Source: a virus
Strand: one strand, 5' to 3'
DNA length: 40,030 bases
IMG/VR virus record: IMGVR_UViG_3300030331_001607
Location: 1-40,030 of that record
Shown: one piece after another, positions 3,737 to 39,722 of the stretch
Layout of the letters: each line of letters opens with the position of its first letter
Numbering within the stretch: position 1 is the stretch's first letter
The notes under the pieces: generated by a model
Databases searched by the model: none
What the model saw: only the letters and a program-made list of their open reading frames with translations
Told to the model about the DNA's origin: nothing
Made by a program: the position numbers and the translations under genes

Positions 3737-4609
3737 TTATGATGGGTTGTTAAAATTAACAATACCTAATGAAGTATCATTAGCTGATTTAGCTAATGTT
3801 CCACCAAACAGAGTATCTGTAACGACTGAAGTCGCGAGATAATCAATATCGTACTCGGACTGCACACGAGGTGAAATCTGTTGAGCATAATAAATTGAGT
3901 CTCTGTTGAAGATTGAAGCTGTTTCATCTCCAGTATCTCCATCATCATCCCAGTCTGAACTTGAAAGTAAGTTTAGACCATAAGCTCTCATAATCATACC
4001 ATCAGCTAATGGATTTTCTCCGTCTCCTCTTTTATTAGCCTCTGTAAAATCGCCTAAAGAAAGAATTGACATATAAGCTGCTGGGGAAGCATATAAATAA
4101 TGCTCTCCATCTGCATAATCATGATTTGCGTCAAGAAGTTTTTGTAAACCACTTCTAATTAAAGCAGTTGTGAAGGTGTTATCTGCTCCTAAAGTAACAT
4201 CATTACCAGTAGCTGATTGAATTAAACCAGCTAAGAATGATTCTACTTTTTTAGCTAAAGAATAACCCATACTTCTTGTGTACTGATTGAAGAGGTCTGC
4301 TGACTCTTGTACTCTTACAATGTCATCTACTCTTTTAGCATTATACCAGTGTTGGTCTACTGTTAATTGAGTCTCTACATCAGTGTTGTTTGTATAAGTA
4401 ACTGCACTACCAGCAGATTTTTGAGCTGCTGACTCTTCAGTTACACGAGGGATATGTAAAATATCTCCACCTTGAGACAACATGTCTGAAAAATCAGTAA
4501 CTTGATTTCTCAATCTAAATTGTCTTTCGGCATAGTTAAGGATAGCGTCTCTCCACATTTCTGGGATAAACACTGCCGCTGTTGTTGGGGTAACATTTCC
4601 GTTTGCCAT
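3737..4609 (-). CDS. Major capsid protein A
   Basis: A 290-residue protein starting MANGNVTPTTAAVFIPEMWR. It lies directly downstream of a scaffold-like gene in the head region, the standard position and size for an HK97-fold coat protein. A paralogue at 38865-39722 aligns over its whole length: both have the LRNQVTDFS, SMGYSLAK, GDFTE..KRGD, YDIDYLATSVV/YDIDHLATSVV and IVNFNNPS/IVNFKNAS landmarks in the same order, at roughly half identity by eye. There is a clear AGGAG site before the ATG. The coat role is inferred from context, length and the paired paralogue, not from a catalytic motif. Confidence 0.85.
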   Translation of the reverse strand: MANGNVTPTTAAVFIPEMWRDAILNYAERQFRLRNQVTDFSDMLSQGGDILHIPRVTEESAAQKSAGSAVTYTNNTDVETQLTVDQHWYNAKRVDDIVRVQESADLFNQYTRSMGYSLAKKVESFLAGLIQSATGNDVTLGADNTFTTALIRSGLQKLLDANHDYADGEHYLYASPAAYMSILSLGDFTEANKRGDGENPLADGMIMRAYGLNLLSSSDWDDDGDTGDETASIFNRDSIYYAQQISPRVQSEYDIDYLATSVVTDTLFGGTLAKSANDTSLGIVNFNNPS

Positions 4610-5240: not shown

Positions 5241-6560
5241 ATGAATAAAGTTCCAAAAGAATATCAATTCAAGAAGAAATGGTTTGAATATATGGGTTAC
5301 GAGCCTCATCCAGGACAAGAGAAAATGCACTATCCAGAGAATCCAAACGCTTCCTTCTTTGTAAACATCTGCGGTAGAAGATATGGAAAGACTACTGCAG
5401 CGTATCGTGAAGCAGAATTTTACGCAGCACAACCTAACAAAAAGATATGGCTTGTTGGACTTTCTTATAAAAAATCAAGACTTATGTTTCGTGAAGTATT
5501 TAAAAACATGGTTAAGGGAAACAAGAAAGATATTGTTGCTGCATCTGAAAAAGAACAGTATATAAGATTTGCTTGGGGAAGTACAGTAGAAGGAATGTCT
5601 GCAGACAATCCATCTTCTTTGCTTGGGGAGGGATTAGACTTGGTTATTATTGACGAAGCTGCAAGAATGCCTAGAAAGATTTGGGATATGTATTTATCTC
5701 CTACTTTATCTGACAAAAAAGGTAAAGCTATTTTTATTACAACTCCAAATGGATATAACTGGATTTATGATTTATATCTATTAGGTAAACAAGACCCTAA
5801 ATGGTATTCAACATCTTCTCCAAGTTGGGATAATTATCATGCATTCCCAGATGGTTATAATGATGAGTTCCTACAAGAAAGAAAAAGAAATTTATCAAAA
5901 GAAATATTTGACCAAGAGTATGGAGCAAAGTTTGCATCCTTTCAAGGTAAGGTATATCCATTTGATAGAGACATAGATGTAAAGAAAGTTAAGTATCAAT
6001 CACACTTACCAACCTATTGTACGATTGACTTTGGTTATAGAATGCCAGCGGTTTTATTTATGCAAACATATAGAAATAATGGTGTTTGGTATATAAACAT
6101 AATTGACGAAATTATACATAAAAAAAATGTTGCTACAGAAACACTAGCACAAATGATTTTAGATAAGAATTATCCAGTTCTGCATTACTATGGAGACCCA
6201 GCTGGATATAATGTACAAGGACAAACTGGAATGGGAGATATAGAAATCTTTAAAAAGTCCGGTATTAATGTTAGATTTAGGACTGATAAAGCAAGTAGAA
6301 ACATTGCATCCTCTGTAAGTTATGTCAGAGGATTCTTTGAATCTGCTTCTGGAGAAAGAAAAATATCAGTGTCAGATAAGTGTACTGGTATTATAGAAGA
6401 TTTTGAAAATTATAGGTATCCAGAAGAAGTAGAAGGTAAGACTTTATCTAACGACCCAATTAAAGATGGGTTTTATGAACATGGTTGTGATGCGTTTAGA
6501 TATTTTATAACTAATCGCTTCCCAATGACTAATAACGAATTAATAAGGATTGCAAGATGA
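5241..6560 (+). CDS. terL: Terminase large subunit (TerL)
   Basis: A 439-residue packaging motor: an N-terminal ATPase that pumps DNA into the procapsid and a C-terminal RNase-H-fold nuclease that cuts it. Visible motifs are Walker A GRRYGKTT (45-52), Walker B LVIIDEA (134-140, with D138 and E139), coupling motif ITTPN (166-170), and nuclease acidic residues D263 (TIDFGY), D319 (YGDPAG) and D417 (GCDAFRYF). Length is normal for the family. The ribosome site is weak. Its stop overlaps the portal start as ATGA, so the two are translationally coupled. Unusually, it is transcribed away from the capsid genes, and the small subunit lies about 2.2 kb downstream on the opposite strand. Confidence 0.95.
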   Translation: MNKVPKEYQFKKKWFEYMGYEPHPGQEKMHYPENPNASFFVNICGRRYGKTTAAYREAEFYAAQPNKKIWLVGLSYKKSRLMFREVFKNMVKGNKKDIVAASEKEQYIRFAWGSTVEGMSADNPSSLLGEGLDLVIIDEAARMPRKIWDMYLSPTLSDKKGKAIFITTPNGYNWIYDLYLLGKQDPKWYSTSSPSWDNYHAFPDGYNDEFLQERKRNLSKEIFDQEYGAKFASFQGKVYPFDRDIDVKKVKYQSHLPTYCTIDFGYRMPAVLFMQTYRNNGVWYINIIDEIIHKKNVATETLAQMILDKNYPVLHYYGDPAGYNVQGQTGMGDIEIFKKSGINVRFRTDKASRNIASSVSYVRGFFESASGERKISVSDKCTGIIEDFENYRYPEEVEGKTLSNDPIKDGFYEHGCDAFRYFITNRFPMTNNELIRIAR

Positions 6561-7921
6561 TATTAACACCTCAAGAGATTATTAAAAAATCTTTAAAAGA
6601 ATTTAAACTACAATCAGTTTCTAATAAAAGAGAGGAAGTAATTAAGTATTTAGATTATTATACTGGAACAGAAACTAATAAGTATATTAAAAATTATTTC
6701 GATACAGATGCGTTTAGAGAAATACCACAATACTCTGCAAATATTACAAAAAAGTTTATTAATAAAATGTCAAGGCTATATACTGTTGGTGCTAAAAGAA
6801 GTCCTAAAGGTGTCTATGAAGATATGACAATGAAAAAAAATGTCAGAATGAAACATATTGAAAAAATGACTAAGCTATTAGGAACAGTGGCTGTAGGTAT
6901 ATTTTATAAAGAAGAAAAAGACAAAAAACATTTTGACTATGTTCCAGTTTATTATTTCATGCCTTTTTTTGATGAAGATGTATTTAATCCTTATGCAATA
7001 ACCTATCCAAATTTTATGCCAGTAGATGACGCCTATAACACACAAAAGATGACTTATTCATACTACGATAGCGAAAGATATATAAAATATGACCAAGATG
7101 GTAAAATTTTAGAAGAAGTAGCTAATGAAAGTGGAGTTTTCCCATTTGTTTTCTTTCATAGAGAGGACCAAATAGATTCTTTCTTTGTTGAGGGTGCAAA
7201 TGATGTAATATCTGCTAATGAACATATAAATATTACTATGACTGAAATGCAATTAGGTCTAAGGTATCAAATGTTCGGACAACCAGTTGCTTCTGGTATT
7301 GTTGCAGACCAAAACATAGCAAGAGCAGGTAGTAATGAGATTTTAATGCTTGGAGAAAATGGAAATTTTGACATTGTTAGTCCAAAAGGCAACATTGAGT
7401 CTGTAATTGAGAATATAAAGCTACAATTAGAGCTTGTAGCCCTTAATAACCACCTTTATATCACATTTTCTGATACTGGAGGCGAAGTTCCTTCTGGTAT
7501 TGCCTTAAAAATTAAGGATGTTGAAAGAATGGAGGACTATCAAGACGATAAAGAAATGTTCCGCATTTTTGAACACAAAATGTACAAAGTAGAAGAGGCT
7601 ATTGCTTCTTATAACAGCATAAAACTACCAAAAGTAGACGATTTTATGATAGATTTCTATGATATTGAGTATCCTATGACTACTCAAGACACTATTTTGC
7701 AAAACAACTTCGATTTACAGAACAATTTGACTACACAAGCACATATTTTAATGAAAAATAATAAAGATTTAGATTTAGAAGCCGCAGTAGAGCAAATTGC
7801 ACAAAATAAAGAGATAAATGAGTTGTTAGCAGGTAATTTTGACCAAGAAGAAGAAGCCAAAGTCGAAAATGTAGAAGAAAATCAACAAGAAGAAGAAAAT
7901 GAAGATATTTCTAACGATTGA
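6557..7921 (+). CDS. Portal protein
   Basis: This 454-residue protein directly follows TerL with an ATGA overlap. The position, the size and a typical middle section (EGANDVISANEHINITMTEM, then QPVASGI) match the dodecameric portal through which DNA enters and leaves the head. Residues about 20-80 have the 'YLDYYTGT' and 'NITKKFINKMSRLY' helices seen in phage portals. The C-terminus is a long acidic, glutamate-rich tail (EENQQEEENEDISND). The next gene begins inside this tail, overlapping by 23 bases. Confidence 0.85.
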   Translation: MILTPQEIIKKSLKEFKLQSVSNKREEVIKYLDYYTGTETNKYIKNYFDTDAFREIPQYSANITKKFINKMSRLYTVGAKRSPKGVYEDMTMKKNVRMKHIEKMTKLLGTVAVGIFYKEEKDKKHFDYVPVYYFMPFFDEDVFNPYAITYPNFMPVDDAYNTQKMTYSYYDSERYIKYDQDGKILEEVANESGVFPFVFFHREDQIDSFFVEGANDVISANEHINITMTEMQLGLRYQMFGQPVASGIVADQNIARAGSNEILMLGENGNFDIVSPKGNIESVIENIKLQLELVALNNHLYITFSDTGGEVPSGIALKIKDVERMEDYQDDKEMFRIFEHKMYKVEEAIASYNSIKLPKVDDFMIDFYDIEYPMTTQDTILQNNFDLQNNLTTQAHILMKNNKDLDLEAAVEQIAQNKEINELLAGNFDQEEEAKVENVEENQQEEENEDISND

Positions 7922-10725: not shown

Positions 10726-10763
10726 TCTATATGATTAATGATAACAAAAAAAGAGGTTTAAAA

Positions 10764-11009
10764 ATGAAATTAATAAATATAATTCCAAGTGCTATTGCCT
10801 ATGGTTTTATGCTTTGTGCATTCATAGGCTTACTAGTTGGTTTTGCTTTTTTTCTTTTAGCAATATCCAAAAATGATTTTGCACTTTACATAATGGATAA
10901 TCCAATAAGTGTTCAATACTTTTTAGACTCATTAATTTTAATTGGGTCTTCAAGTTGGATGCTAATTATTGGATTATGGATTGAACTTAAAATAATTGGA
11001 AGAGGTTAA
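10764..11009 (+). CDS. Small two-helix membrane protein, first cassette gene
   Basis: 81 residues with two strongly hydrophobic segments: about 8-35 (AYGFMLCAFIGLLVGFAFFL) and about 55-75 (LDSLILIGSSSWMLIIGLWI). The start is placed at the ATG at 10764, eight bases after AAGAGG. An ATG 33 bases earlier has no ribosome site. It is 2 bases from the amidoligase start, so it belongs to the same transcript. This suggests that the cassette acts at, or is anchored to, the membrane. No family is recognised. Confidence 0.65.
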   Translation: MKLINIIPSAIAYGFMLCAFIGLLVGFAFFLLAISKNDFALYIMDNPISVQYFLDSLILIGSSSWMLIIGLWIELKIIGRG

Positions 11010-11011
11010 AA

Positions 11012-12658
11012 ATGATTAAGGAATATAAAAATAACTCAAATGAATATGATGCATTGACTATGTCTAGGCTATGTAAACAAAACCACCAAAGCAATAATGG
11101 TGTATCGATAATTCTTTATGGAAACTATTACTTTAATGAAGATTCACATGTTGGAGAATATAAAAAATTCTTCATTCATAAAGGTTCATTAAAGAGTAGT
11201 GAAAATAGTGTATTTAAATATATTGGAGATACAATTACCACTAATGAATGGTTATGTCAAGAATATGATAAAGAAAATAGAACTTTTAAATTTAATGGAA
11301 TGGAGTCTAATTATCCAAAGCATCTAGAATACTTTAAAAATGAAACTATACATTATTGGGTATTGACTAAAGAAGTTTTAAATGTAGTTGATTTTCGATA
11401 TGATGATGATGAACCCTATGCAAAAGCTTTGCCATTACAATTTAAAAAGTTAAGAAGCATACATTTTTGTAAATCTTGTGAAAGTCATTTTAAGACTACT
11501 TGTCAATGTTTAAAAAAATCTAATTCAAGAGGTAATTATTCATATAACAATATTGTCTTTTGTGATGTGCAAGATAAGTTAGATATTACAAGTGTTAATC
11601 AATCTATTAATGAAACCTTAATGAACAACAAAACCTTCTTGGGTTTTGAATGGGAGCTAGGTTTTACAAAAAGTAGATATTCGACCAATGATATTAGTTT
11701 AGCATTTTATAGACATGTTAAAAATAAAGATATAAATCTTTTTAATATGTTTGGCGATAATATGGAAGATAGCACAATAAGCGACCACTATAGTAAAGGT
11801 AGTGAAATTGGGTCAAATGTTTTCTCCTTTGACTTCTACAATAAATATCAAACTCAAATTGAAGAGGTTTCTGAATTTGCAAACCAATCAGAAATATTTG
11901 GAGATAAGTTAGGATTTCACATTAACATAAGTAGAGATAGTTTTGATGGTGCTAATCACATTCAAAGATTTTTAACTTTGGCCTATTCAAGTGTAGAGGT
12001 CTTAGTTAAGTTGAGTGGTAGAAGAGATGGAGGTCGAAATATGCAAAATTATGCACAAGTTCAAGTTCCTTATGGATATGGCTCAATGAAATTTGGGCAA
12101 ATCAATAGAGGTTTGACAAGTCAAAGAAAGATAAAAAAGTTGGCTATGGATGTTTTTCAAGGTAATTCAATAGGCGATAAATATTGTTGGTTTGCTTTTC
12201 ACAAATCCAATGTGATTGAATATAGATTACCATCATCCTCCACTGATAGTGTTGGAGATATTTTCTCAAAAACTTGTAGGCATCTAGAGTTGGTTTTTGG
12301 ATTAGTTGAATATTCCAGGCACTACAATTTAAGAAATATGCGTTTTGATAAGTTCTTAGAATATCTTTCAAGAAATGAAGTCTATACAAATATTTACAAT
12401 GCCATTGTAAGTAATGAAAGTGTAATGGATTTAATTGAGAAGTCTACTCAATTTGCAAAACAAATAAATCTTCAAAAACCAGATTTAGAAGTTGAAGATG
12501 TTAATTTAGATGATAAGCATTTAGAAAAAATGGAAGATGATTTTAAGAAATTTTTGAAGGATGCAAAATCAATCCATGAAGTTGATGATGAAACTAAAGT
12601 CATTAAAGAACAACATAATAAGAAAATAAAACCAAGAAAAAAAAGAGGAGATAAATAA
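11012..12658 (+). CDS. Predicted amidoligase (GCS-like COOH-NH2 ligase)
   Basis: A 548-residue protein. The catalytic part shows the ordered motifs of the phage amidoligase family (PF12224-like, glutamine-synthetase/GCS fold): GFEWELGF (211-218, metal-binding E213 and E215), KGSEIGSNVFSF (about 262-273, E265), GFHINISRDSF (301-311, H303) and NVIEYRLP (400-407, E403 and R405). Enzymes of this fold use ATP to join a carboxylate to an amine. An N-terminal ~200-residue region is unassigned and contains a cysteine cluster (CKSCESHFKTTCQC, 153-166) that may bind zinc. The C-terminus is a charged coil ending in KKIKPRKKRGDK. Two bases after its stop starts a class-II glutamine amidotransferase, a logical ammonia donor. 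The substrate is unknown. Confidence 0.75.
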   Translation: MIKEYKNNSNEYDALTMSRLCKQNHQSNNGVSIILYGNYYFNEDSHVGEYKKFFIHKGSLKSSENSVFKYIGDTITTNEWLCQEYDKENRTFKFNGMESNYPKHLEYFKNETIHYWVLTKEVLNVVDFRYDDDEPYAKALPLQFKKLRSIHFCKSCESHFKTTCQCLKKSNSRGNYSYNNIVFCDVQDKLDITSVNQSINETLMNNKTFLGFEWELGFTKSRYSTNDISLAFYRHVKNKDINLFNMFGDNMEDSTISDHYSKGSEIGSNVFSFDFYNKYQTQIEEVSEFANQSEIFGDKLGFHINISRDSFDGANHIQRFLTLAYSSVEVLVKLSGRRDGGRNMQNYAQVQVPYGYGSMKFGQINRGLTSQRKIKKLAMDVFQGNSIGDKYCWFAFHKSNVIEYRLPSSSTDSVGDIFSKTCRHLELVFGLVEYSRHYNLRNMRFDKFLEYLSRNEVYTNIYNAIVSNESVMDLIEKSTQFAKQINLQKPDLEVEDVNLDDKHLEKMEDDFKKFLKDAKSIHEVDDETKVIKEQHNKKIKPRKKRGDK

Positions 12659-12659
12659 T

Positions 12660-13304
12660 ATGTGTGTAGCGATATTAAAAACCAAAGGAAGTAAAATAAC
12701 AAAAGATGAATTATCACAATGTTGGGAGACCAATGATGATGGTGGTGGCTATGCTTTTGCTAAAGATGGCAAACTTTTTGTTAAAAGAAGTCTGGATAAA
12801 GATGAATTTATTTCATCTTTACTAAAGTCAATAAAGACTTTTGATGCAAACTATTTAATACACTTTAGAATTGCTACAAGTGGAACTATAGATATGCTAT
12901 CAAATTGCCATCCATTCGCCATTGATAAAAACAATGTCTTTTGTCATAATGGAGTAATGGACAATGTTCAATCAAATAATAAAATATCTGATACAAGATT
13001 CTTCAATAAAGATATTTTACAACAAATGAATTTTGATTTTAAAAATCATTCACATTTAAAATTAATTGAAGAGTTTATTGGAATTGGCAATAAGTTAATC
13101 TTCTTAAATAAAAGTGGTCATTACAAGATTGCAAATGAAGCTATTGGAACTTGGCAAAATGGTGTTTGGTTTTCAAACCTCAATCATTCTTGTAATTACA
13201 AAAGATACAAAATTAAAACCTATGAAGATTGGTATGAAGATAGCACAATTAATCAATTTCAATTAAGACCAATGAAAACAAAAACAAAAAAGAAGGAGGT
13301 GTAG
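12660..13304 (+). CDS. Class-II glutamine amidotransferase (Ntn hydrolase)
   Basis: A 214-residue protein starting MCVAI, so removal of Met exposes the N-terminal nucleophile Cys2. It carries the family's other landmarks in order: HFRIATSGTID (68-78) with NCHPF (82-86), the CHNGVMDN loop (95-102), SDTRFF (110-115), NKLIFLN (144-150) and VWFSNLN (169-175). Such domains hydrolyse glutamine and pass ammonia to a partner. Here the partner is very likely the amidoligase 2 bases upstream. It is a free-standing single domain, not fused to a synthetase as in GlmS or PurF. AGAGGAG site at the end of the upstream gene. Confidence 0.85.
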   Translation: MCVAILKTKGSKITKDELSQCWETNDDGGGYAFAKDGKLFVKRSLDKDEFISSLLKSIKTFDANYLIHFRIATSGTIDMLSNCHPFAIDKNNVFCHNGVMDNVQSNNKISDTRFFNKDILQQMNFDFKNHSHLKLIEEFIGIGNKLIFLNKSGHYKIANEAIGTWQNGVWFSNLNHSCNYKRYKIKTYEDWYEDSTINQFQLRPMKTKTKKKEV

Positions 13305-13305
13305 A

Positions 13306-13521
13306 ATGTCTATTGATAGGGAGCAATTAAACCATCCAAGAGACCATCGAAATGCCTTTAGGCACACTTCATCAAGTTTAGAAGATTGTTTAACAATCAT
13401 TTCTGAGACTGGTGGAGTTGATGAAGCAAAAGACTATTTGGATGAAGACCAAGCGAGACACATTGATAAAGTTCTAGAATTATCAAAACATCTAAATTGG
13501 TATAATCAATTTGAAGAGTAG
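13306..13521 (+). CDS. Small protein closing the amidoligase cassette
   Basis: A 71-residue acidic protein (VDEAKDYLDEDQARHIDKVL region) predicted to be helical. It starts 2 bases after the amidotransferase stop with an AAGGAGG site in the previous gene, and is followed directly by a strong terminator, so it is the last gene of the unit. No family is recognised. It could be a small carrier or substrate peptide for the ligase, but nothing in the sequence proves it. Confidence 0.6.
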   Translation: MSIDREQLNHPRDHRNAFRHTSSSLEDCLTIISETGGVDEAKDYLDEDQARHIDKVLELSKHLNWYNQFEE

Positions 13522-13549
13522 TTATCATTAATCAAACTCTTCTAAAAAG

Positions 13550-13576
13550 ATGCCCTCTTTTGAGGGCATTTTTTTT
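13550..13576 (+). terminator. Rho-independent terminator of the cassette
   Basis: ATGCCCTC and GAGGGCAT pair perfectly (8 bp) around TTTT and are followed by a run of T. It is placed 28 bases after the last cassette stop codon. This is the clearest intrinsic terminator in the window. Confidence 0.9.
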
Positions 13577-13580
13577 ACAT

Positions 13581-13628
13581 AAAATCCATCAAAAACACTA
13601 AAAAACCTTAATACCAAAGTTCACTTAA
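13581..13628 (+). repeat. 48-bp direct repeat, copy 1
   Basis: It begins AAAATCCATCAAAA and ends CAAAGTTCACTTAA, and matches 13677-13724 at 44 of 48 positions. The two copies start 96 bases apart. A related CATTTTAAAGG word recurs between and after them. Confidence 0.85.
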
Positions 13629-13676
13629 AGTCATTTTAAAGCTTTTTAAGGGCATTTTAGAAGGTCAATTTTTAGT

Positions 13677-13724
13677 AAAATCCATCAAAATTAGTAAAAA
13701 ACCTTAATATCAAAGTTCACTTAA
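13677..13724 (+). repeat. 48-bp direct repeat, copy 2
   Basis: Second copy of the repeat at 13581-13628, with four substitutions and no gap. Spacing and lack of coding potential suggest protein-binding iterons. Confidence 0.85.
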
Positions 13725-13860
13725 TCAAAAGAAAATGGATTTTAAAGGCATTTTAAAGGCTTGTTTTTTCACATTTTTGATAAAAAAATAGCATTCCTGG
13801 AGTTCTTAGGAGCAAAAAATAAGAATGAAAATCTAAAAAAATGCACTACGGTCGCTTCAA

Positions 13861-13965
13861 AAAATGTGCAAAAATCAAATTGCTGCAAGATTTAAAATCA
13901 AATTTTCTGGATCCGGAGTGGCGTTCCTGATCCGGAGACCTGAAAAAATTTGATTTGCACATTTT
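13861..13965. repeat. Inverted repeat enclosing a paired GATC motif
   Basis: AAAATGTGCAAAAATCAAATT (13861-13881) is the inverse, with a two-base bulge, of AATTTGATTTGCACATTTT (13947-13965). Between the arms lie CTGGATCCGGAG (13907-13918) and CTGATCCGGAG (13927-13937), near-copies 19 bases apart. Their GATC sites are two of the three in genome A. The element could form a cruciform or bind a dimeric protein. Confidence 0.75.
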
Positions 13966-14003
13966 CAAAAATTTCAAAATTTCAAAAATTCAAAAATTTA
14001 AAA

Positions 14004-14033
14004 TTCCTGGAAGTTCCTGGAAGTTCCTGGAAG
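14004..14033 (+). repeat. Three tandem TTCCTGGAAG iterons
   Basis: Three exact 10-bp units in a row, each nearly palindromic around its centre, then a degenerate TTCTAAG. A 10-bp period puts each unit on the same face of the helix. Single CTCCTGGA or TTCCTGGA words also occur in region 1 and near 13795. Confidence 0.85.
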
Positions 14034-14047
14034 TTCTAAGATTTTTA

Positions 14048-14064
14048 TTGCACATGTCAAAATG
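14048..14064 (+). repeat. 17-bp repeat TTGCACATGTCAAAATG, copy 2
   Basis: Exact copy of 10437-10453, in the same orientation, on the far side of the amidoligase cassette. Confidence 0.7.
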
Positions 14065-14201
14065 TCCAAAAAAACCGTATTTTTTTTACAAAAAATTAGA
14101 AACGCTGCTCCTTATCCCAGTTTGTAGTAATTTTTTTACTGTTATTTCATTGGAGAAATATGGCGAGATGTGATGTTTTTTATACTTTGCTGCAAATTTA
14201 A

Positions 14202-14230
14202 TTGACTTTATACCCCCCCTATATCTAAAT
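14202..14230 (+). promoter_or_regulatory. Possible early promoter
   Basis: TTGACT lies 17 bases before CTAAAT, about 35 bases ahead of the first early gene. The spacing and the -35 word fit a sigma-70-like promoter, but the -10 is poor. Another AT box, TGTATATATT, lies just after. Confidence 0.3.
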
Positions 14231-14265
14231 TGTATATATTATGAATAACAATAGAGGAGAGAGTG

Positions 14266-19195: not shown

Positions 19196-20420
19196 TAACC
19201 AAGTTATTTGTTGTCCAAGATGTAATAGTAGTAGGGTAAAGAAAAAAGGTTTTAGACATAATCGTGGTAATAAAATACAAAGATGGATATGTAATGACTG
19301 CGACTATAGTTCTTCTGACCCTTTATTTCTTGATAAAGATGTTATTATAGAAAATGTAAAATTAGCTAAACAAAAACAAGCTGCACAAGATAGAAATAGA
19401 ATATCAAATAAATCTTTTAGAGAACATGCAAGGCTTGATAATGCCTTATGTGAATATAACAAACAATTAATCAAAGTTCTTGAAAAGCATACAATACCTA
19501 AATTAGCACATGTCAAAACTAAAAGTAGCAAGGCGGTCGGTGTAATACAAATATCTGACACACATTTCAACGAAGAGGTAAATCTTCCTAACAATAAATA
19601 TAATTTTGAAATAGCATCAAAAAGATTAAGAACTTATATCAGAAAGGCGAAGGTTTACTTAAAGGCAATAGGTGTAAAAGAAGTTTTAATTGCTATGACT
19701 GGCGATTTAATGAACTCTGATAGAAGATTAGATGAAATGTTTTCACAATCTACTAATCGTTCTAATGCAACATTTATATCAGTGCAGCTATTAAAGCAAG
19801 TAGTTGAAGATGTAAGAAAAGACTTTAAGGTTTCACTTGCTTGTATTACTGGTAATGAAAGCAGAGTGAAGGATGAAATAGGTTGGGATGATTACATTGC
19901 AAGTGATAACTACGACTTCACTATTTACAATATATTAAGATTTTTATATCGTGATACAGATGTAGATTTTATTTTATCCAAAGACGCAACAGAGGTTGTG
20001 GTTAATTTGGCAGGTATGAATTTACTTATGATACATGGACATGGAAGTATAAAAGCAAAACATGAAACATCTATTACGCAAATTAAGGGAAGATATGCAA
20101 GCGGCAGAGATGTGAAGATTGACTTTGTTATATCTGGACATATACATTCTGCAAGAGTTGGAGATACCTATGGAAGAAGCTCATCTCTTGTAGGAGCAAA
20201 TGCTTATTCAGAAAAAAACTTAAACTTAGAAGGTAGAGCAAGTCAAAACATTTATGTTTTTTATAAAAACAAAACCATTGATGGTATAAAAATTGACTTA
20301 CAAGAATATGATGATAAAGGCTATGATATATCTAAAGAATTAGAAGAATATGCTTATAACTCAAAATCAGATGCTAAGTTAAGGCAAGGTAAAACAATAT
20401 TAAAAATTATAACAGTATGA
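19188..20420 (+). CDS. Metallophosphoesterase with N-terminal zinc ribbon
   Basis: A 410-residue protein from ATG 19188, chosen for its GGAGAAAG site. An in-frame start 33 bases upstream is less likely. The N-terminus is a zinc ribbon (CCPRC at 8-12, CNDC at 35-38) resembling InsA-type DNA-binding ribbons. Calcineurin-like motifs follow: SDTH (123-126), TGDLMNSD (171-178), GNES (222-225), HGHG (283-286) and SGHIHSAR (316-323). The third motif is GNES rather than the usual GNH. It is likely a phage nuclease or phosphatase in recombination or end processing. It shares ATGA with the methyltransferase. Confidence 0.75.
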   Translation: MDDNQVICCPRCNSSRVKKKGFRHNRGNKIQRWICNDCDYSSSDPLFLDKDVIIENVKLAKQKQAAQDRNRISNKSFREHARLDNALCEYNKQLIKVLEKHTIPKLAHVKTKSSKAVGVIQISDTHFNEEVNLPNNKYNFEIASKRLRTYIRKAKVYLKAIGVKEVLIAMTGDLMNSDRRLDEMFSQSTNRSNATFISVQLLKQVVEDVRKDFKVSLACITGNESRVKDEIGWDDYIASDNYDFTIYNILRFLYRDTDVDFILSKDATEVVVNLAGMNLLMIHGHGSIKAKHETSITQIKGRYASGRDVKIDFVISGHIHSARVGDTYGRSSSLVGANAYSEKNLNLEGRASQNIYVFYKNKTIDGIKIDLQEYDDKGYDISKELEEYAYNSKSDAKLRQGKTILKIITV

Positions 20421-21427
20421 CACATGGCAGTTTATTTAGTGGTATAGGTGGAATAGACTTAGGCTTTGAGATGGCAGGTATTAAAACATCTTGGACTTGT
20501 GAAATAGATGATTGGTGTCATACTTTACTTAAAGAGAGGTTTCCAGATGCAAAACATTATAGGGATATTATGGAGATTAATAAAAAATCTTTGCAAAGAG
20601 TTGATATTATTAGTGGAGGTTTTCCTTGTCAAGATATATCTACAGCAGGGAAAGGAGCAGGATTAGATGGAAAGAGGAGTGGTCTTTGGTTTGAAATGTA
20701 TAGAATTATTAGGGAATTACGACCAAAATGGATTCTTATTGAAAATGTTGCAAACCTCACTAATAAAGGAGGAGTTAGAGTATTGCAAGACCTTGCCGAA
20801 GCAGGGTATGATGCAGAATGGCAAGTTATATCAGCAAGAGATGTTGGAGCAAGACACCTGCGAAAAAGACTTTGGATTATTGGATATAGACAAGATGTAC
20901 AACACACCCTTAAGCAGAGATTGGAGAGACAATTACACATCTGTGAGTTCCCGGTTGAAAGCGAAGAAAAATCAAAAGCTGTACAAGAATGGACTTCCAA
21001 ACGAACTATACATAGAGGAGATACTAACATATCCAACTCCAGTAGCGACAAACATACAAAGCCCAGCTCCAAATCAAGTAGAGCAGACAAAGAACGGAAG
21101 TTTTATAATAAGGAGAAAAGGAAAGCCACACATGACCTATGGAGCGAGACTGCAGGATGTGATAATGTATCTTCACAAACAACTGCCAAAGGAAGAGCAG
21201 ATGAAGATAGTGAAAGACAAGATAGAATATATGGAAAATTTAGACTCAAAGCCTTTAAAAGGCTTAAAAATGAATCCAGATTGGATAGAGTGGCTTATGG
21301 GATTTCCCAAAAAGTGGACAGATATTACGACAGAGTTAAAGGACTTGGAAATGGAGTCGTACCACAAATCCCATTTTTAATAGGACAAAGAATTAAATAC
21401 TTAAATAATATATTGGAGGAAAAATGA
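20417..21427 (+). CDS. C5-cytosine DNA methyltransferase (Dcm type)
   Basis: The 336-residue frame has all N-terminal Dcm motifs: FSGIGGIDLGFEMAG (7-21, SAM), GGFPCQDIS (67-75, catalytic C71), ENV (109-111) and QVISARDVGARHLRKRLWII (136-155). The end, VKGLGNGVVPQIPFLIGQRI (307-326), is motif X. Between about 160 and 300, the target-recognition region, the sequence is very hydrophilic and poor in hydrophobic residues, while another plus frame over the same bases reads like a genuine methyltransferase TRD (separate entry). Either the gene has two compensating frameshifts or two frames are used. Likely role: protection from host restriction or self-marking, with the Dam-type enzyme downstream. 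Confidence 0.8.
   Translation: MTHGSLFSGIGGIDLGFEMAGIKTSWTCEIDDWCHTLLKERFPDAKHYRDIMEINKKSLQRVDIISGGFPCQDISTAGKGAGLDGKRSGLWFEMYRIIRELRPKWILIENVANLTNKGGVRVLQDLAEAGYDAEWQVISARDVGARHLRKRLWIIGYRQDVQHTLKQRLERQLHICEFPVESEEKSKAVQEWTSKRTIHRGDTNISNSSSDKHTKPSSKSSRADKERKFYNKEKRKATHDLWSETAGCDNVSSQTTAKGRADEDSERQDRIYGKFRLKAFKRLKNESRLDRVAYGISQKVDRYYDRVKGLGNGVVPQIPFLIGQRIKYLNNILEEK
20895..21329 (+). other. Alternative +1 frame with methyltransferase-like TRD
   Basis: In the frame one base ahead of the methyltransferase, an open stretch reads MYNTPLSRDWRDNYTSVSSR, later LTYPTPVATNIQSPAPN, MTYGARLQDVIMYL and MNPDWIEWLMGFPKKWTDI. The 'NTP.SRDW', 'YPTP.A' and 'NP.WIEWLMGFP..WTD' motifs occur in this order in the recognition region of many phage Dcm enzymes. 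The frame is open for 238 codons (20667-21380). This suggests that the ancestral protein switched frame here, or that both frames are used. Confidence 0.5.
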
Positions 21428-38864: not shown

Positions 38865-39722
38865 TTATGAAGCATTCTTGAAATTGACAATTCCACCTAA
38901 AGCATTTTCTTCAGGGTGTGATAGTGTTGCACCAAACAACATATCAACCACAACTGAAGTCGCTAAATGGTCAATGTCATAAGCACTTTGAGAACGAACC
39001 CCAAACTGCTCAGCATAGTAAACTGATTCTCTCTTGAACACAGAACCTGATATGTTAGTTCCACCTTCAGACCAGTCGGTTGAAGGATAAACTGGCATAC
39101 CATAGATTTCCATGACATTACCTGAAACGATAGGATTTACTGCATCTCCTCTCTTCTGACTCTCAGTAAAATCGCCTTGTCCCATTAAGCCCATATATGC
39201 TTTTGGATTAGCATAGAAGAAGGTATCTCCATCTGTGTAATCGTAGTTTTGATCTAATAGTAATTCAAGTCCACCTCTTAGTTCTGCTGGTAAGATGATG
39301 TCATCTGTTGCAAGAGTAACTAAGTTTTGTGTGTGTCCTTGGATTTTACCTGCTAAGTATGCTTCTACACCTTTAGCTAAAGAATAACCCATTGAACTTG
39401 CATAAACTTCAAATAAGGATTGATTTGATTGTACATTTGCAATGTCCTCAATTCTTTTAGCTTCGTAGATATGCTGGTCAAGAGGGATTGTTCTTGAAGT
39501 ATCTGTGTTAGCATCATAAGTAACAGCTGAGTCAGCTGACTTATCTCTTTTTGTATCTTCCTTGACTTGTGGAATATTGATTCTGTCTACACCAGTTGCA
39601 AGTGCAGAAAAGTCAGTTACCTGATTTCTTAATTGCATTCTTTTTTGTGCAAATTCTAAGACAGCATCAGACCACATTTCGCCAAGAAAAACATCAGTAG
39701 TTGTTTTTGTTACATTAGCCAT
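38865..39722 (-). CDS. Major capsid protein B
   Basis: A 285-residue paralogue of capsid A with the same landmarks in order (LRNQVTDFSAL, SMGYSLAKGVEAYLAG, GDFTESQKRGD, SVYYAEQFGVRSQSAYDIDH, IVNFKNAS). It differs at roughly half its positions, too many for strain variation within one phage population. It has its own scaffold upstream and its own zinc ribbon and fibre downstream. A phage with two complete capsid and scaffold pairs would be exceptional, so a join of two related genomes is the first explanation. Confidence 0.85.
   Translation of the reverse strand: MANVTKTTTDVFLGEMWSDAVLEFAQKRMQLRNQVTDFSALATGVDRINIPQVKEDTKRDKSADSAVTYDANTDTSRTIPLDQHIYEAKRIEDIANVQSNQSLFEVYASSMGYSLAKGVEAYLAGKIQGHTQNLVTLATDDIILPAELRGGLELLLDQNYDYTDGDTFFYANPKAYMGLMGQGDFTESQKRGDAVNPIVSGNVMEIYGMPVYPSTDWSEGGTNISGSVFKRESVYYAEQFGVRSQSAYDIDHLATSVVVDMLFGATLSHPEENALGGIVNFKNAS

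Follow-up and report, generated by a model that had tools for sequence, protein, structure and literature searches.

Predictions of phage amidoligases paired with class-II glutamine amidotransferases (GATases) reportedly date back to about 2009. A locus of this kind in a 40,030-base virus record (31.9 % G+C; the virus infects bacteria), the whole of which is hereafter called the window, raises two questions, i.e. which of its genes form a unit and what that unit would make. A preliminary description had read four adjoining genes as one cassette; our data suggest that only the two enzyme genes belong together.

Organization of the locus

The relevant features of the window are as follows.

10764..11009, + strand: small membrane protein of 81 aa with two hydrophobic segments, predicted from the ORF list and hydropathy
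11012..12658, + strand: predicted amidoligase of the glutamine synthetase/glutamate-cysteine ligase (GS/GCS) fold, Amidoligase_2-like, 548 aa, assigned from motifs, PF12224 matches of relatives and a structure model
12660..13304, + strand: predicted free-standing class-II GATase (Ntn fold), 214 aa, N-terminal Met-Cys, assigned from PF13230, a profile and a structure model
13306..13521, + strand: small acidic orphan protein of 71 aa, pI 4.9, charge -8, predicted from an ORF with a GGAGG site
13546..13575, + strand: predicted intrinsic terminator, stem 13550-13569 followed by a T tract, from fold energy
20417-21427, + strand: gene of the early region resembling those for cytosine-DNA methyltransferases (phrog_363, E=2.7e-74)

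The four tandem ORFs that had been placed at 10764-13521 are all present there, each preceded by a Shine-Dalgarno-like AGAGG/GGAGG sequence. For the first of them a longer frame from an ATG at 10731 exists, and the AGAGG-like ribosome site at around 10752 fits the start at 10764. The spacing of 2 bases described for all four holds for the first gap only, the other two being 1 nt each. The operon adjoins genes of opposite orientation and ends at the terminator, whose strength was confirmed by a fold energy of -19.7 kcal/mol vs -5.2 +/- 2.3 in shuffled sequences (z = -6.2). The best match to a riboswitch or other known RNA near the operon was csRNA (E=0.85, below gathering), the promoter scan gave no excess over shuffles and PADLOC returned no defence-system match.

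An AT-rich stretch 3' of the operon (13573-14260) contains direct and inverted repeats, i.e. a 56-nt direct-repeat pair at 13573 and 13669 and repeats of 10-nt period at 14001-14036, and may act as an origin or have a regulatory role. A similar AT-rich repeat stretch is found at approximately 6280-6930 of the related IMG/VR contig 3300030372_002798 (L010). At opposite ends of the window record, two genes resembling those for major capsid proteins (3737-4609 and 38865-39722, both on the - strand) share 51 % identity and both match phrog_267.

The amidoligase and the glutamine amidotransferase

On its own, the window amidoligase has no significant match in Pfam, PHROG or NCBIfam, and neither this protein nor that of L010 reaches the curated cut-off of PF12224 (Amidoligase_2), a family matched by 27 of 29 aligned viral homologues (best 1.2e-10). 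The window ligase is 52 % identical to the L010 ligase across the protein and matches that of L011 by BLASTP at 1e-12. Because L010, L011 and the PF12224-positive relatives connect stepwise, the window ligase is homologous to Amidoligase_2 despite lying under the cut-off.

The catalytic core spans approximately residues 205-480 of 548. G211/E213/E215, D253, G263/E265, G301/H303, R337 and E403/R405 are invariant in the 29 viral homologues, and the active-site motifs GxExE, GxH and ExR are all present in the window ligase and invariant in 29/29. The stretches from which an amidoligase had originally been predicted, i.e. GFEWELGF, GFHINISR and VIEYRL, thereby hold up, with G211-x-E213-x-E215, G301-x-H303 and E403-x-R405 invariant or nearly so. 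Metal and ATP are bound in glutamine synthetase by ExE and His residues, and the R-x-E-x-R-x-P segment of that enzyme presumably resembles V-I-E403-Y-R405-L-P of the window ligase.

The AlphaFold model of the ligase has a mean pLDDT of 57 and a pTM of 0.61, with residues 1-180 not modelled; only its core is well predicted, pLDDT reaching about 70-92 across most of residues 260-340 and 420-480. Searched against the PDB with Foldseek, it matched YbdK best (1r8g; E=5.7e-4, prob 1.00) and also a glutamine synthetase (8.8e-3), the two at prob 0.96-1.00, as well as the glutamate-cysteine ligase of plants; the best viral structure matches were phage amidoligases, with E values to 2e-12. Despite its moderate quality, the model thus points to a GS/GCS-type fold. 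A prediction devoid of a GS/GCS-type active site, which the preliminary description had named as an argument against its own assignment, was not obtained.

The GATase passes the PF13230 cut-off (25.6 bits vs 23, E=7e-6), and C2, H68, R70, T73, H84-P85-F86, H96-N97-G98 and D111 are invariant. The motifs MCVAI and CHNGVMDN, noticed earlier, were well chosen, as the N-terminal MC and HNG (96-98) do not vary among homologues. R70 and N97-G98 align with GlmS, while the GlmS equivalents of C2 and D111, which lie outside the alignment or in an unreliable part of it, are those that we assume from family knowledge. A complete glutamine site, i.e. a Cys exposed after Met removal, Arg, Asn-Gly and Asp, is accordingly predicted from the residues present. 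A profile built from eight phage GATase homologues matched the glutaminase domain of GlmS in the PDB (1xff) with E=1.7e-8 and EgtC with only 0.7, whereas the structure model (pLDDT 79.6) matched GlmS and EgtC about equally (prob 1.00). EgtC (TIGR03442) is also the best NCBIfam match, although its equivalog cut-off is clearly missed (21.8 bits vs 218.65), and the GlmS cut-off lies far above the score of the GATase. Since the catalytic set and the fold fit both GlmS and EgtC, neither distinguishes between glutaminase and gamma-glutamyl hydrolase.

Comparison of the window and L010 copies gave a dN of 0.45 and a dS of about 1.6 for the ligase and a dN of 0.32 and a dS of about 1.4 for the GATase, dS being near saturation in both; both genes are under purifying constraint.

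Conservation of the two-gene pair

For the survey, viral IMG/VR sequences were scanned with ligase patterns only, yielding 80 loci, in which the partner was then sought with a GATase profile. A GATase was present in 79 of them, lying at most 80 nt from the ligase ORF or overlapping it in 77 and 0.5-1.2 kb away in 2 more, while the one locus in which none was detected (L076) is on a contig that ends 36 nt past the ligase. In many loci the two frames overlap by 32 nt. As the ligases form 23 clusters at 70 % identity (annotated-phage loci included), the survey does not count one phage repeatedly, even though many of the loci are related to one another. Such adjacency far exceeds what chance would give, and the two genes, their frames often overlapping, are inherited as a unit. 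The pairing of a GS/GCS-type amidoligase with a class-II GATase is therefore upheld by motifs, fold and adjacency, and homologues that never occur side by side, the other outcome regarded beforehand as adverse, were not what the 77 adjacent or overlapping loci revealed. In 57 of the 80 loci (L010-L089), an ORF near the pair, recognised by eye, reads like a WhiB-type regulator, which suggests that many of these loci come from phages of actinobacteria.

IMG/VR gave no match when scanned with the ligase or the GATase as a single protein, so that the A1 profile was needed; the GATase alignment A2 was too diverse to serve for such a scan. Likewise, tblastn of the window ligase gave no match in isolated phages, whose relatives were obtained via the GATase and via L024. 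The pair was found in phages MEP401/402 (OM43), StenR_269 (Stenotrophomonas), ctgrD200 (uncultured host), Marvin (Mycobacterium) and vB_AciJM_313 (Acinetobacter). The ligase and the GATase of a Christensenellales locus (L005) are 1.1 kb apart; in a C. difficile phage (L093) the profile retrieved no GATase. In Bifidobacterium phages a GATase is present and no ligase was found by profile; an ORF beside the GATase of one of them, BA720P3, reads ligase-like (FGIEIES, GGHIHVAR, TIELRTF) and was left out of the counts. The genome-collection scan yielded one confirmed relative, a Rhodobacteraceae MAG contig of 3.3 kb carrying the pair. What is conserved across phages of Pseudomonadota and Actinomycetota is therefore the pair and not the larger cassette, and the cellular genomes searched almost entirely lack it.

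The flanking genes do not share this conservation, and the four-gene unit originally proposed reduces to the ligase and the GATase. No viral relative was found for the 81-aa membrane protein, and among the surveyed loci a membrane ORF just upstream of the pair was predicted only in the window and L010. The latter, of 104 aa, occupies the matching position; homology of the two proteins was considered on the basis of 29 % MAFFT identity and rejected, BLASTP giving no significant similarity. The 71-aa acidic protein has no family match and no viral relative was found for it; its gene is absent from L010, where a terminator-like hairpin directly follows the GATase. With the acidic gene missing there and the membrane gene lacking a homologous counterpart, a conserved four-gene cassette is rejected. 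Neither a role of the membrane protein in the system nor that of the acidic protein as a carrier finds support in conservation with the pair, and we propose that both are optional, lineage-specific neighbours of a two-gene core.

In most viral relatives, CxxC repeats of the Zn-ribbon or LIM type are found at the N-terminus of the ligase and the C-terminus of the GATase, and one LIM domain match (2.9e-5) was obtained. The window and L010 proteins keep a single knuckle in the ligase (C153-x2-C156-x7-C164-x-C166 in the window, where an invariant CxxC remnant is seen) and none in the GATase. Such repeats might join the two partners or serve in docking a substrate.

Possible function

We tentatively favour, at a probability of around 40 %, a phage-specific two-subunit enzyme that forms amides in a glutamine-dependent manner, with ammonia passing from glutamine to an ATP-activated carboxylate. 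The GATase would lose Met1 and hydrolyse glutamine at Cys2, the ammonia would be passed to the ligase, and the latter would use ATP to turn a carboxylate into an acyl phosphate, by the GS/GCS mechanism, before amidating it. Less firmly, the acceptor may be a carboxylate of peptide type in the host envelope, e.g. a peptidoglycan stem peptide or its precursor, and the resulting envelope change might disfavour competing phages or early lysis during infection. The motifs, the folds of both proteins, their pairing, the purifying constraint and the peptidoglycan modification predicted in print for the fuller cassettes argue for such an enzyme. Against ammonia transfer counts that EgtC, a gamma-glutamyl hydrolase, equals GlmS as a match of the GATase model. 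The best ligase match weakens it further, because YbdK, of the glutamate-cysteine ligase type, couples glutamate with an amine without using ammonia. As for the envelope, the hint given by the membrane protein is weak since that protein is not conserved with the pair, and, as both partners carry Zn-ribbon/LIM-like repeats in most relatives, a small cell-wall substrate is no obvious fit. In addition, the published cassettes have the GATase on the degradation side, and the overall confidence of the ligase model is low.

The latter grouping, made for GATase and gamma-glutamyl cyclotransferase (GGCT) by the PSA-HP1 authors, leads to the main rival, a gamma-glutamyl cycle, which we regard as possible though on balance doubtful. 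Here, the ligase would attach glutamate by its gamma-carboxylate, or ligate a substrate to a gamma-glutamyl carrier, and an EgtC/DUG3-like Ntn hydrolase would remove the gamma-glutamyl group, with no ammonia transferred. The EgtC fold and NCBIfam matches, the YbdK and glutamate-cysteine ligase folds at the top of the ligase list and the fuller cassette of StenR_269, which adds GGCT-like, GS-like and ATP-grasp genes, fit such a cycle; however, the GATase profile is much closer to GlmS than to EgtC, and GGCT does not recur as a neighbour of the minimal pair (clusters judged by eye). The Cys-rich repeats bear on another reading, in which the pair would modify, instead of the wall, a macromolecule within the cell (DNA, tRNA or a protein of host or virion) and the repeats would dock the substrate or join the enzymes. 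Their presence on both partners in most relatives, the LIM match and the CxxC remnant speak for it, but most repeats are lost in the window and L010 proteins and the scanned genes include no DNA-hypermodification genes, only the cytosine-methyltransferase-like one, so that we consider it unlikely.

Also unlikely, in our estimate, is an obligate phage-specific enzyme of two physically joined proteins that adds a glutamine-derived amide or a gamma-glutamyl group to a macromolecule with no such modification known, e.g. host protein, tRNA or phage components; in such an enzyme the partners would probably be joined via the Zn-ribbon/LIM-like repeats that both carry in most relatives. Finally, the annotation of the OM43 phage pair as auxiliary metabolic genes would suit a role in accessory nitrogen or amino-acid metabolism, in which ammonia or glutamate is freed or stored, or a small amide metabolite made, without any macromolecular target. 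Yet the genome-collection scan gave no bacterial pathway homologue, its one confirmed relative lying on a MAG contig of 3.3 kb, and the strict one-to-one pairing better fits a dedicated complex, making this role improbable.

Comparison with known systems

Among characterized proteins, the YbdK-type carboxylate-amine ligase (PDB 1r8g), the best PDB fold match, is only 11 % identical to the window ligase, which is approximately 190 residues longer (548 vs 352-358), mostly at the N-terminus. The class-II GATase fold and catalytic residues are common to the window GATase, the glutaminase domain of GlmS and EgtC; in GlmS, however, the glutaminase is fused to its own synthase, whereas the window GATase is free-standing, and EgtC removes a gamma-glutamyl group in ergothioneine synthesis.

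The preliminary description also referred to comparative work noting such phage pairings, and published predictions were indeed found. Amidoligase–GATase pairs have been described by comparison as a predicted peptidoglycan- or peptide-modification cassette in phiEco32, LUZ24, RIO-1/PSA-HP1, Marvin and MEP401/402, with the phiEco32, LUZ24/tf and RIO-1/PSA-HP1 cassette attributed to Iyer et al. 2009 and Hardies et al. 2013 (via PMC5498523 and PMC10580990). Neither an experimental product of the pair nor a test of peptidoglycan as the target of related cassettes was found in the open-access literature.

Like the window, the phiEco32/LUZ24/RIO-1-type cassette has an amidoligase and a class-II GATase in the early gene region, but it adds a GGCT, an ATP-grasp enzyme and a second amidoligase, while the window has the two core enzymes. 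None of these additional genes is found in the ORFs adjoining the pair, whose operon ends at the terminator; the rest of the record, which may be a fragment, was partly family-scanned. The Methylophilales phages MEP401 and MEP402 (Zobellviridae; PMC10580990) carry adjacent genes in the same order near replication genes, with a ligase of 546-548 aa that is only 17-22 % identical to the window ligase and a GATase that is 36-37 % identical and has an additional C-terminal extension, but their genomes show neither a membrane gene just upstream nor an acidic gene. In mycobacteriophage Marvin, with an Actinomycetota host, gp105 and gp106 are an adjacent amidoligase (profile E 1.1e-50), with an N-terminal Zn-ribbon-like motif, and GATase (4.8e-59; 30 % identity to that of the window). 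Marvin gp105 (L091 3420-4781) is labelled a glutamine amidotransferase domain protein and scores as an amidoligase, gp106 being the GATase; the ligase is likewise mislabelled in other Marvin-type mycobacteriophages.

The broad survey of the pairing, the useful addition made here, reduces the problem to two soluble proteins and points to a tractable host, M. smegmatis, whose Marvin-type phages have the pair. The kind is known, and the window is a diverged member of it, i.e. with the two core enzymes only, a ligase below Pfam detection and the Zn repeats lost.
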